Positions 9,769-63,072 of a stretch of DNA of 64,000 nucleotides are shown here, one piece after another. The position numbers were made by a program, and so were the translations under genes. Where the stretch lies: contig NZ_JAPHUF010000012.1 in assembly GCF_026196735.1 (NCBI RefSeq), positions 310,001-374,000 on the forward strand. The letters are read 5' to 3'. The stretch comes from Sulfurimonas sp. GTDB lineage: Bacteria > Campylobacterota > Campylobacteria > Campylobacterales > Sulfurimonadaceae. The notes beneath the pieces were generated by a model that saw nothing but the letters and a program-made list of their open reading frames with translations, searched no databases and was not told where the DNA came from. The stretch's first letter is position 1; every line of letters begins with the position of its first letter.

Positions 9769-11407
9769 TTATATAACTATTGCTATAGAAAATCTTCATG
9801 TGTTTATAGAAGAAAAATTTGCCGAGGGGTTTAGCTATCTTCTTGATATTACAGCAATTGACTACAGCGAATATATTGAAGCTCAAGAAGAAGAATTTGC
9901 AATCGTATATATAATTCGTCATAAAGATTTTAAACAAATATTAGTGATTAAGAGTTATCTTGCAGCATTGGAAGTTCAGAGTATAACAGATATTTTTAGC
10001 GGCGCTGACTGGCTGGAGAGAGAAGTTTATGATCAGTACGGCATAAAATTTAAAGGTCATAAAAATCTAAGAAGAGTTTTAAACCATTGTGCATTTGTAG
10101 GTCATCCTTTAAGAAAATCATACCCGATTACAAAAGGTCAACTATCTCTTTGTGTAGATGATTTGCAAGATGAGATGAATAACAGACTGCTTGGTAAAAG
10201 CGTAGTATGTAAACTCGAAGATGGCTCATTTAGCGATTGTAGCAAGGATTTGATGTTTTTAAATCTTGGACCCTCGCATCCCGCAAGTCATGGAACAATA
10301 AGAACCTATCTTGCACTTGATGGCGAGACTATTGAAGCTGCGGTAATAGAGATTGGTTATTTGCACCGCGGATTTGAGAAGAGTTGCGAGAATCATACAT
10401 ATAATCAGATTATCCCATATACTGACAGGCTGAATTACTGCTCTGCTATAAGCAACAACATAGCTTTTGCAAAAACTGTTGAGGATATGCTTGGTGTTAC
10501 TCTTCATCCGCGAGGGCAGGCAATAAGAGTTCTTTTGCTTGAACTATCTCGCATAGAGGATCATCTTGTGTGTTTGGCTGCAATATTGGTCGATATGGGT
10601 GCAATGACAAACTACTGGTACATGTACAACCCAAGAGAGACGATTTATGAGCTGCTCTCCAAGCTTACAGGTGCGAGACTAACTAACTCGTATATGAGAA
10701 TCGGCGGTATGACGAATGATTTGCATGAGGAGTTTGAGAGTGACTTAAATAACGCACTTCTCAAAGTAAAAGAGGGCGTAGATGAGACACTTTCGCTAAT
10801 AAAGCACAATAGAATCTTTCATGATAGAACACAAAACATAGGTATCATAACTCCAAAAGATGCCATAAATGCATCCTTGACAGGTCCGAACCTACGGGCT
10901 TCTGGAGTGGCGTACGATATGAGAAAAGATAGTCCATACTATGGTTATGAAAACTACGAATTTGATGTTGCTGTAGGGAGTGTCGGAGATGTATATGATA
11001 GGATTATGGTCCGCTTTGAGGAGATAAAACAAAGCACCAGCATCATAAATCAAGTTATGAAAACTATGCCTGAGGGTGAGATAAATGTTAAAGATGCTTC
11101 GATAGTATTGCCTAATAAAGAGGCTGTCTATACTACAATAGAGGGAGTGATGAATCAGTTCAAGCTTACTTACGAAGGAGTTAAAGTTCCTGCAGGTGAG
11201 TATTATGGCTCTATAGAAGCCACAAACGGAGAGCTGGGTTTTTTCATAGTAAGCGACGGCAGCGGAACACCGTACAAGGTAAAGGTAAAAGCACCGTCTT
11301 TTACGGCCATTTCAGCCTATGCAGACATGATTGAGGGATTTCAGCTTGCTGATGCTGTTTTAACACTTGGAAGTTTAAATATTATAGCAGGGGAGATGGA
11401 TAGATGA
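9761..11407 (+). CDS. nuoCD: NADH dehydrogenase I fused subunits C and D
   Basis: 548 residues in one frame joining NuoC and NuoD. The NuoC part (1-135) has [14 protein letters not shown] and [10 protein letters not shown]. After a linker of about 30 residues the NuoD part starts near residue 165 with [13 protein letters not shown], the quinone-cavity segment containing the conserved His, then [12 protein letters not shown] and [10 protein letters not shown]. The fusion is like that of E. coli NuoCD. It overlaps nuoB by 8 and nuoE by 4 bases. Confidence 0.96.
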
Positions 11408-59335: not shown

Positions 59336-60333
59336 TGGCTTATGCTGCGTTTCGTTCTATCGGTGCTTATGTACCAAGTAAAATATTATCGAATGAAGAC
59401 CTCGCTACAATGGTTGATACTTCAGATGAGTGGATTACTAAGAGAACGGGTATAAAAGAGCGTCATATTGCAGCAGACGATGAATTTACAAGTGATATGG
59501 GTGTTAAAGCAGCAGAATTAGCAATCCAAAGAAGCGGCTTAGATAAGAGTGAGATTGATATGGTTGTTTGTGCAACTATCTCTCCTGATTACTTTTGTAT
59601 GCCATCAACAGCTACTATAATAAGTACAAAGCTTGGACTTGGCAATGTAACTGCCTTTGACATATCTGCTGCATGTACAGGTTTTGTTTATATTTTATCT
59701 ATCGCAAAAGCATTCATAGAATCCGGAATGAAAAAAAATGTTCTTATTGTCGGTGCTGAAAAATTATCTTCTATTACTGACTACACAGACAGAGGCACAT
59801 GTATCCTTTTTGGAGATGGTGCCGGTGCTGCTATGATTTGTGCAACCGATAACAAAGACGAAGCTATTATTGATGTTCACACTGGCGCAGACGGAACATT
59901 TGCAGACTTGCTTATGACACCAAATGGTGGAAGCGGCTCCGCTCACGATTCGTTGGACCAAGAAGCAAATAGCTGTTTTATGCAAATGAAGGGTAATGAG
60001 ACTTTTAAAGTTGCTGTTCGTACTCTTACAAAAGATGTTATTGAGATTTTACAAGAGAACAACATTGAAAGTTCTGCTATCAAGCATTTTGTTCCACACC
60101 AAGCTAATTACCGCATAATAAAAGCCGTTGGCGATGCTCTAAAGCTAAAAGACGAGCAGGTTGTACTGACAGTTGCAAAATATGGAAACACATCGGGCGC
60201 TTCTATACCAATGGCGATAAACGATATATATGAGCAGGGAAAATTAAAATCGGGTGAGCTGATGCTTCTTGATGCTTTTGGCGGGGGGCTGACATGGGGT
60301 TCAGCGCTAGTCCCTTTTAGCCCTTCAAAATGA
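59335..60333 (+). CDS. fabH: 3-oxoacyl-ACP synthase III
   Basis: 332 residues. Catalytic triad visible: Cys in [11 protein letters not shown] (about 115), His in [11 protein letters not shown] and Asn in [12 protein letters not shown]. Starts fatty-acid synthesis from acetyl-CoA and malonyl-ACP. Ends the lipid cluster. Confidence 0.97.
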
Positions 60334-60342
60334 TACTATAGC

Positions 60343-60437
60343 TTAATTTCTTCGTTGAAATTTAGTGAATATTCGTCACTTACTATTAGTAAGCTCCTCA
60401 AATTAACTAAATTCCGTCTCGAACTTAAACGAAATTA
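60343..60437. other. Structured intergenic element of unknown nature
   Basis: Three nested complementary arms: TAATTTC/GAAATTA (60344-60350 with 60431-60437), AATTTAGT/ACTAAATT (60359-60366 with 60406-60413) and CTTACT/AGTAAG (60379-60384 with 60388-60393, loop ATT). It lies between the convergent fabH and HIT-like genes. Could be a terminator region, a dispersed repeat or a small RNA; no family recognised. Confidence 0.4.
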
Positions 60438-60462
60438 TTCATTTTATTAACTTTCTCATAAC

Positions 60463-60831
60463 TTACAAATTTTCTAAAGCTTTTTTAACTCTTTTGTGAA
60501 ATTCTTTCTCATTTGGGAGATTTAGTTTAGCTTCTCTTAGTTTTTCTCCCCACATAGGGTTAGGAAAGTAGCTGTCTTCTTCAAATCTTGCCATTACATG
60601 TATATGCACTCTTGGCAGCATATTGGCAAATGAAGCCATATTTATTTTTTTTGGATTATAGTAGTTTTTCATCTCTTCTTCTATAATATCATAAACATCC
60701 CAAAGCTTAGTTCTTAAGCTTTTTGGGACATCCCCGAGTTCCTTGTAGGCTTCTTTTGTAAAGATTTTCAACCAAGGTATTTCACTATCTTCTGTCTCAA
60801 CATAAAGCTCTTTTTCTTCATAGATTATCAT
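60463..60831 (-). CDS. HIT-like protein
   Basis: 122 residues, HIT fold by the strand-helix pattern and the RVHIHVMARF segment. The usual histidine triad HxHxH is HIHVM here, so the third His is Met. The middle, nucleophilic His remains. HIT proteins hydrolyse nucleotide-phosphate bonds. The gene has AAGGA before its ATG. Confidence 0.7.
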   Translation of the reverse strand: MIIYEEKELYVETEDSEIPWLKIFTKEAYKELGDVPKSLRTKLWDVYDIIEEEMKNYYNPKKINMASFANMLPRVHIHVMARFEEDSYFPNPMWGEKLREAKLNLPNEKEFHKRVKKALENL

Positions 60832-60873
60832 TATTTATTCCTTGTTTATAATCATAGCAAAAATTGTTCTTTT

Positions 60874-60902
60874 TTGACATTGATATAATATTTTGTTATA
60901 AT
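60874..60902 (+). promoter_or_regulatory. Perfect sigma-70 promoter of the riboswitch RNA
   Basis: TTGACA at 60874-60879 and TATAAT at 60897-60902 with a 17-base spacer. A full -35 box is rare in Campylobacterota, where -35 consensus is usually absent, so this promoter should be strong. Confidence 0.8.
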
Positions 60903-60913
60903 ATACGCCTTGA

Positions 60914-61000
60914 TAAATATTAGAAAAAGCCAACCTTGTTGCGAAGCAAGTACGGAAAGTTATGGGTCTCTCGTAGATCGCCAGACTACCTAGGTATTTA
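60914..61000 (+). promoter_or_regulatory. c-di-GMP-I (GEMM) riboswitch candidate
   Basis: Features of the GEMM-I aptamer: outer helix TAAATATT.AG with CTAGGTATTTA (60914-60923 with 60990-61000), the AAGCCAACC strand with the ligand G, a P2 hairpin CTTGTT/AGCAAG closed by the GNRA tetraloop GCGA (60935-60950), the conserved ACGGAAAG joining strand, and a second arm GGGTCT/GATCGCC-AGACTACC. Ligand type is inferred from the G in AAGCC. About 130 bases separate it from the small gene; a long pair CAGGTATAAA/TTTATACTTG there may be the switch part. Confidence 0.75.
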
Positions 61001-61129
61001 CACTACATTTTCTTTATCTATCAAAATTTATTTCAAGCAGGTATAAACAATCTCAGTATTGTGTTGTACATGTAAGTTATGTATTGTTTTATGCTCTGAT
61101 TTTTATACTTGTTTGTATGGAGGAAGATT

Positions 61130-61405
61130 ATGAAAAGTATAATCTTATGGGCCGTTACAATTTTGGTATTTTTAAACATTGATGCTTTTGCTAAAACTCT
61201 TGCCGAAGACGCTTTTAGTGTAAGTTATATCAATGACAAAGTTGATCTGGCTCCAGTTGTTTTATTAAAAATAAGACCGGAAACTGCATCAGATATTGCA
61301 TTTAAACTTGCAATTTCTAGTAGTTTGTTAGAACTTAAAGAAAAGACTTTGATAGATAGCAATTTGGTAAGTAGGATTGCTCTTTTGGTGAGTTATAGAT
61401 TTTAA
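61130..61405 (+). CDS. 91-residue exported protein under riboswitch control
   Basis: Start ATG 61130 with GGAGGA at 61119-61124; an upstream TTG at 61109 lies before that site and is rejected. Signal peptide (SIILWAVTILVFLNIDAFAK), then LAEDAFSVSYINDKVDLAPV and a helical, hydrophobic end (ISSSLLELKEKTLIDSNLV). No family recognised. Its only visible regulator is the riboswitch, so it probably acts in c-di-GMP-dependent surface life, which is inference. Confidence 0.7.
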   Translation: MKSIILWAVTILVFLNIDAFAKTLAEDAFSVSYINDKVDLAPVVLLKIRPETASDIAFKLAISSSLLELKEKTLIDSNLVSRIALLVSYRF

Positions 61406-61411
61406 GTAATG

Positions 61412-61439
61412 TACATGTACAACTTTTGTTGTACATGTA
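61412..61439. terminator. Hairpin between convergent genes
   Basis: Perfect 12-bp stem TACATGTACAAC / GTTGTACATGTA with a TTTT loop, between the exported-protein gene and the helicase gene. Contains ACATGT in both arms, like the hairpin at 3801. No clear T-run on either strand. Confidence 0.6.
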
Positions 61440-61449
61440 AGAGTGAGAA

Positions 61450-62997
61450 TTAATCTCTGCTTCTGTTACGGTTTCTGTCTCCACTACGGTAACCACCACC
61501 GCCAGAACGGTTTCTGTCTCCACTTCCTGAACGACTTCTGCTTCCACCGCCGCCTGAGCGATTTCTGTTTCCACGGTAACCACCACGACCACCACTTCTG
61601 CTGTCATTTCTTTTACCGGCACGCTCTAAAATAGCTGCTAGTTTGTCAGCAGGGATACCGATAGTATTTGGACCTTTAACACTCTGTCTGTCTAAAATCA
61701 TAGAAACGAGTTTAAACATAATAGTAGCTTCATCAATATCTTCTTTTAACATGTCAAGAATTTGGTGCGCTTCGTCATAGATGTGTTGATCTTCTATAGT
61801 TTTTACAATAGATTTTAAATTTAATGCTCTTAAATCATTTTTGCTTGGAACAAATGCATGAGTCATTGATGTTCCGACTTTGTTTTTGATTCTTTGTAGT
61901 TCTTTAAACTCTAGAGGAGTTAAAAGTGTAATAGCTTTACCTTTTGTTCCAGCACGGCCAGTTCTACCGATACGGTGAACATAAGACTCTGAATCAAAAG
62001 GAATATGGTAGTTAAATACATGTGAAATATCATTTACATGTATACCGCGAGCAGCAACATCGGTTGCAACAAGAACTTTTACTGAATTTTGTTTAAAACC
62101 TTTGATGACGGTTTCGCGCTGACGCTGCTCCATATCTCCATGAAGGCCGTTAGCAAGGTAGCCGGCGTTTGATAAAACATTTGAGAGTCTGTCAACTTCA
62201 CTTTTTGTTCTACAAAATACTACAGATTTTTTTGTAGTCTCAGAATCCATAAGACGGATGATAGCATCATCTCTTTCAGACTCTTCGATTACATAATACT
62301 CTTGTTCTATATCTGTATTTGTAGTTTCACCCTGAGTGATAGAGATGAATTCCGGGTTATCCAAGATTCTCTCAGCAAGAAGCTTGATAGGTTTAGGCAT
62401 AGTAGCCGAAAATAGAAGTGTTTGGCGATTTGTCGGCAGATATGAAAATATTTCATTGATATCATCCAAAAATCCCATGTCTAGCATCTCATCAGCTTCA
62501 TCAAGAACAACAACACTTGGTGTAAAGTCTTTTATCATCTCTTTTTTAAGAATGTCCAAAAGACGGCCAGGAGTTGCAACAACTATGCTAGCGCCTCTTT
62601 CGATAAGGTCGATTTGTCTCTTATATGAGCTTCCGCCGTAAACTGTTGTAGTTCTAGCGCCTAAGCCTCTTCCGTATTTGAAAAGTTCATCACTTACTTG
62701 AGTCGCAAGTTCACGAGTCGGAGTAATAACTAAAATCTCAACTCCATTGTTTCTTTTCATATTGTTAAGTGCGGGAAGTCCGAATGCTGCTGTTTTACCT
62801 GTACCTGTATGTGCCTGACCGACTATGTCGCGACCCTCTAGTATGAATGGTATTGCTGCTTCTTGAATAGGGCTTGGAACTGTAAATCCAGCCTCTTTGA
62901 CAGCTCTTTGGATGTCACTACTTAAACCTAAATCAGCAAATGTGATTAGTGGCTTTTCATTAATTTGTTCTTCGTTTGTTTGTGCATTTTCTTGCAT
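61450..62997 (-). CDS. DEAD-box RNA helicase
   Basis: 515 residues from ATG 62997, chosen over the ATG one codon earlier because AAAGGA then has five-base spacing. Q motif and TFADLGLS, Walker A AHTGTGKTAAF, DEAD box VLDEADEM, SATMPKPI, and motif VI HRIGRTGRAG. The C-terminal 45 residues are Arg/Gly/Ser/Asn rich with RSGGGG repeats, an RNA-binding tail of the CsdA/RhlE type. Probably helps ribosome assembly or RNA decay in the cold. Its leader of about 70 bases could be autoregulatory. Confidence 0.95.
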   Translation of the reverse strand: MQENAQTNEEQINEKPLITFADLGLSSDIQRAVKEAGFTVPSPIQEAAIPFILEGRDIVGQAHTGTGKTAAFGLPALNNMKRNNGVEILVITPTRELATQVSDELFKYGRGLGARTTTVYGGSSYKRQIDLIERGASIVVATPGRLLDILKKEMIKDFTPSVVVLDEADEMLDMGFLDDINEIFSYLPTNRQTLLFSATMPKPIKLLAERILDNPEFISITQGETTNTDIEQEYYVIEESERDDAIIRLMDSETTKKSVVFCRTKSEVDRLSNVLSNAGYLANGLHGDMEQRQRETVIKGFKQNSVKVLVATDVAARGIHVNDISHVFNYHIPFDSESYVHRIGRTGRAGTKGKAITLLTPLEFKELQRIKNKVGTSMTHAFVPSKNDLRALNLKSIVKTIEDQHIYDEAHQILDMLKEDIDEATIMFKLVSMILDRQSVKGPNTIGIPADKLAAILERAGKRNDSRSGGRGGYRGNRNRSGGGGSRSRSGSGDRNRSGGGGYRSGDRNRNRSRD

Positions 62998-63072
62998 CAT
63001 AATCCTTTAAACTCAGGAGATGATACAAGTCTGCCAAGTTGACAGAGCACCTTCCCCTAAAGTATTTCGCGA

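Follow-up and report, generated by a model that had tools for sequence, protein, structure and literature searches.

A described counterpart of the locus reported here is Vc2 of V. cholerae (tfoY), a translational OFF switch in which the outer helix P1 is the switching element (PMC7371385; PMC9262584) and c-di-GMP is contacted by G20, A47 and C92 (PMC4744006). The G20A change shifts selectivity towards cGAMP (PMC6274999). In the same organism another GEMM-I element, Vc1, exerts positive control on gbpA, which encodes an adhesin (PMC4744006). The locus in our window, the whole 64,000-nucleotide stretch of Sulfurimonas sp. DNA that was analysed, shares with Vc2 the predicted use of P1 as switching element, a ribosome-binding site distant from the aptamer and no need of a terminator, whereas the platform sequence and the target gene differ and OFF control in the window is a prediction. 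With Vc1 it shares a GEMM-I aptamer ahead of one exported-protein gene, but the predicted direction of control is opposite, and GbpA is a characterised adhesin whereas the window protein belongs to no known family. On the protein side there is a likeness to YadA-type trimeric autotransporter anchors, in which each chain supplies about four strands and ends in an aromatic residue; the window family has no passenger domain and shows neither sequence nor significant structural similarity to them.

The riboswitch class of the window is ordinary and well known. Features shared with the RF01051 class include the full-length match, helices P1, P2 and P3, the GNRA tetraloop, the three contact bases and the conserved interhelical C-G bases; the lower P2 pairs are G-C in the consensus and C-G in the window, and the leader and platform are specific to the window's group, unlike the class generally. 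The novelty lies in a lineage-restricted family of very small exported beta-proteins, whose genes nearly always follow a c-di-GMP riboswitch and retain it at different sites in the genome.

The aptamer and its transcription unit

A preliminary description of this DNA had proposed, at 60874-61405, a GEMM-I-type aptamer with an outer helix and a GNRA tetraloop, lying behind a perfect promoter and followed by a single gene. The coordinates are correct, and each of these elements was recovered by computation (Table 1). The search with the Rfam GEMM model, which the description had named as a check, gave a significant score: c-di-GMP-I (RF01051) matched positions 60919-60993 of the + strand end to end (model 1-87) with 49.2 bits and an E value of 1.3e-06, against a gathering score of 35 bits, and this was the sole Rfam match in the 64 kb at gathering thresholds. 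The outer helix P1 pairs UAAAUA (60914-60919) with UAUUUA (60995-61000), and the P2 tetraloop is GCGA. All three contact bases are present, as G60929 (G20), A60956 (A47) and C60989 (C92), and from these c-di-GMP, rather than cGAMP, is expected as the ligand. Specificity for cGAMP (GEMM-Ib) was rejected as that class requires A at position 20, where the window has G60929. Within the clan, c-di-GMP-I-GGC (RF03167) gave the window aptamer its top raw score, 57.5 bits, but this lies below the gathering threshold of 59 and the consensus of this model has G where the window has A47, so that this assignment was also rejected for the window; the relatives L015, L028, L029 and L068 do exceed the RF03167 cut-off. 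The host genome, of Sulfurimonas type, encodes 34 GGDEF domains above cut-off.

The promoter scored 12/12 with TG before its -10 element and was the only site to do so among 8 promoter-like sites in 60300-61700, a region for which shuffles average 4.6 sites. TATAAT stands at an unchanged distance in the relatives, and the perfect TTGACA occurs in the window alone. The gene for the small protein is the only one downstream of the aptamer because the next gene, coding for a DEAD-box helicase (61450-63000), is convergent. The locus would represent a one-gene transcription unit in which a strong sigma-70 promoter is followed by a c-di-GMP-I leader and a small outer-membrane-type protein.

Table 1. 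Positions of the elements of the riboswitch locus within the window
Feature	Position	Strand	Remarks
Promoter TTGACA-17-TATAAT, extended -10 (TG)	60874..60902	+	Motif scan; TATAAT equidistant in relatives
5' leader strand UUGAUAAAUAUUAGAAAA	60910..60927	+	Forms P1 or pairs with 61008-61029
c-di-GMP-I riboswitch aptamer including outer helix P1	60914..61000	+	RF01051 match; bases and P1 checked
Conserved switching element UUUUCUUUAUCUAUCAAAAUUU	61008..61029	+	Complementary to leader strand and start region
Long AU-rich hairpin region	61031..61118 (limits approximate)	+	Only in window-type (HIT/DEAD-box) relatives
Shine-Dalgarno GGAGGAAG	61119..61126	+	Kept in relatives
Gene for 91-aa exported protein	61130..61405 including stop (CDS 61130-61402)	+	ORF; family alignment; purifying selection
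Likely signal peptide MKSIILWAVTILVFLNIDAFA	Residues 1-21 of the 91-aa protein		Judged by eye
C-terminal beta signal ...RIALLVSYRF	61373..61402	+	Hydrophobic at -2, -4, -6 and -8, Phe last
12-bp perfect hairpin between two convergent genes	61412..61439	.	No T-run; z -4.0

A 13-mer, GTTGTACATGTAA, was matched four times in the window against an expectation of 0.12, once in the UTR (61063-61075), once in each arm of the post-gene hairpin (61411-61423 and 61428-61440) and once at 10618-10630. A 5'-3' pairing of the UTR with the hairpin after the gene through this shared 13-mer was rejected as the complementarity is not kept in the nearest relative.

A small exported protein family and its linkage to the aptamer

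Searches of Pfam, NCBIfam and PDB sequences returned no match above cut-off for the small-protein family, in line with the earlier view of the 91-residue product as a predicted exported protein of no known family. Matches to DndE, phosphatidylglycerophosphatase C, SVA and other low-scoring families were discarded, being inconsistent among members and far under the cut-offs. In the family alignment the identity of members with the window protein goes down to about 15%, and dN/dS values of 0.05-0.31 in ten pairs make purifying selection on the gene clear.

The pairing of aptamer and gene, which the description had suggested looking for in relatives, recurs across the genus. GEMM-I was found above cut-off in 49 of 135 genomes, and in about 22 of these 49 it precedes a small exported protein related to that of the window. 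Among the species with a homologue is Sulfurimonas indica (L108). The pair occupies three neighbourhoods, namely HIT/DEAD-box (the window type), gatB/atpB and LPP20/MoxR. The gatB gene of the window's own genome lies on another contig with no cassette adjoining. Locus L099 shows a truncated aptamer joined to a broken gene, and to judge from this arrangement the two have decayed together, while L097 holds a gene remnant only and L096 an intact family gene without an aptamer. The family was found in this genus only, and an order-wide search of 399 genomes, in which at most 13 candidates per genome were scored, gave one weak match outside the genus, located in a long reading frame. A search for a plasmid origin gave no match. 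At two loci of the gatB site, L019 and L066, a similar riboswitch leader is followed by a cytochrome-like lipoprotein gene in place of the small protein, the L019 product matching DUF1588/DUF1592.

The last strand carries an aromatic end (F or Y) and hydrophobic residues at three to four of positions -2, -4, -6 and -8 in all 26 proteins scored (21 aptamer-linked members, L035, L096 and three 129-aa proteins), compared with 3.0% of 198 background ORFs. An aromatic-ended C-terminal strand is an outer-membrane insertion signal recognised by BAM. The model of the window protein was poor (pLDDT 53); for member L018 the model (pLDDT 76) showed a meander of four strands, the last of which holds the C-terminus. 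In the family member L069 (1084-1437), 30 residues spanning a predicted strand pair are duplicated in frame (ADINSYEVALTNDKVNYIDVPSLNLQLKTQ twice).

Of the features expected of an outer-membrane beta-barrel, the signal peptide (by eye) and the C-terminal aromatic beta signal are both present, and the sequence and fold searches yielded nothing significant among known outer-membrane families or folds. Comparison with PDB folds yielded no significant match; the YadA anchor 2lme, among the non-significant matches with E 1.1 and TM 0.38, is a lead only. The term "exported" used in the preliminary description can be sharpened to a protein that is probably inserted in the outer membrane. It would be exported by Sec, its C-terminal strand would mark it for the BAM machinery and, with only about four strands, a barrel or sheet would form as an oligomer. 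The protein could instead be exported without residing in the outer membrane, as a periplasmic or secreted beta-protein and perhaps a subunit of a self-assembling fibre. A single chain of four strands is too small to close a barrel and would need to form an oligomer, which together with the lack of a significant outer-membrane family or fold match speaks for this reading, but the aromatic C-terminal strand persists throughout the 26 proteins though most other positions diverge, and we regard a location outside the outer membrane as rather unlikely. On the preferred outer-membrane reading, we would tentatively go further, with considerable doubt, to an undescribed Sulfurimonas family of outer-membrane proteins of about 70 residues (mature), with four strands per chain assembling into barrels or sheets, directly switched off by c-di-GMP through a riboswitch that remains coupled to the gene at different sites in the genome. 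The family may offer a minimal substrate for outer-membrane assembly. For the vent-dwelling sulfur oxidisers we found little literature on c-di-GMP targets, and the small protein is a concrete candidate for a surface protein.

Direction and mode of control

The relatives conserve, after the aptamer, an element close to UUUUCUUUAUCUAUCA(U/A)AAUUU, and its alternative pairings were computed across the family. The duplex of leader and element had a mean of -8.9 against -5.0 +/- 0.35 for shuffles, the automatic leader assignment being off for L068 and L028, of which only the leader values are affected. The duplex of element and ribosome-binding site had a mean of -8.8 against -7.3 +/- 0.46, and none of 200 shuffles was as good. 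The switch helices hardly vary (by eye), and covariation was not counted as support. We propose that bound c-di-GMP would hold P1 closed and so free the switching element, which would pair with the region around the ribosome-binding site and start codon and lower translation. Without ligand the element would pair with the leader strand, so that P1 is disrupted and the start region becomes more accessible. OFF control in this sense would mean that the protein is produced at low c-di-GMP.

With the aptamer fold imposed, the opening energy of the start region rose by +2.30 kcal/mol when averaged across 24 loci, as opposed to 0.82 +/- 0.26 with the leaders shuffled, a comparison in which the constraint removes the competing pairing of the leader by construction and in which independence is overstated, as the loci are related and the shuffle test ignores relatedness. 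The start region became harder to open at 23 of the 24 loci, L068 having the opposite sign. The change for the window alone, +1.0 kcal/mol, is within its own null (0.2 +/- 1.1). Given this value, the opposite sign of L068 and the relatedness of the loci, a Vc2-like translational OFF switch is predicted by the folding at the level of the family only, the energy difference of the window itself being within noise. A scan of the window UTR found no terminator-like site on its + strand, as expected of a Vc2-type platform, and an intrinsic terminator in the leader was rejected on this ground. The platform is probably Vc2-like. For the proposal as a whole, that is, an OFF riboswitch with its predicted ligand controlling a small, oligomeric, predicted outer-membrane protein, we put the chances as evenly balanced.

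In the opposite direction, c-di-GMP would raise expression and the protein would serve a sessile life, through the role in attachment or biofilm that the preliminary description had suggested. Such an ON switch would have a precedent in the positive regulation of gbpA by Vc1 (PMC4744006), and the window offers it some room: in the ligand-free fold a local hairpin is predicted to enclose the window's start codon, and the OFF effect computed for the window does not reach significance. We nevertheless consider this combination unlikely, since a start region that is harder to open under the aptamer fold at nearly every locus, the family mean exceeding that of the shuffled leaders, argues for OFF control; a role in attachment or biofilm as such is neither favoured nor disfavoured by the results. 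The switch might also act through transcription elongation, Rho or RNA stability and not through translation initiation. Many relatives have a U-rich stretch after P1, and control of RNA stability by Vc2 as well has been reported, according to the title of a work cited in PMC7371385 (its reference 42); against this, the + strand of the window UTR is free of terminator-like sites and the complementarity of the conserved element to the ribosome-binding site exceeds chance, which makes a non-translational mode improbable. Translational OFF control is the direction that we infer, at the level of the family.

Other genes behind GEMM-I elements

A second GEMM-I element in the window's own genome (L001, C4:240628-240706) lies upstream of the gene for a conserved protein, roughly 480-510 aa in length, whose copy in this genome has no Pfam match. 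The same target stands behind GEMM-I at L011, L014, L017, L022, L039, L040, L046, L047, L053, L060, L063 and L076. At L010, L023 and L041 the aptamer is ahead of a separate exported family of 128-129 aa with an outer-membrane-type end strand (GLNIRF). Kinship of these proteins with the small-protein family was rejected, as profile comparison aligned only 17 signal-peptide columns with a probability of 4.8%. GEMM-I elements about 330-470 nt upstream of apparent rpsB and tsf genes (by eye) were seen at L064, L065 and L067, that of L065 scoring best with c-di-GMP-I-UAU, under its cut-off. Elsewhere in the order, the GEMM-I targets at L007, L038, L045 and L049 comprise, among others, an outer-membrane protein resembling TolC and proteins with repeats that may lie at the cell surface (by eye).
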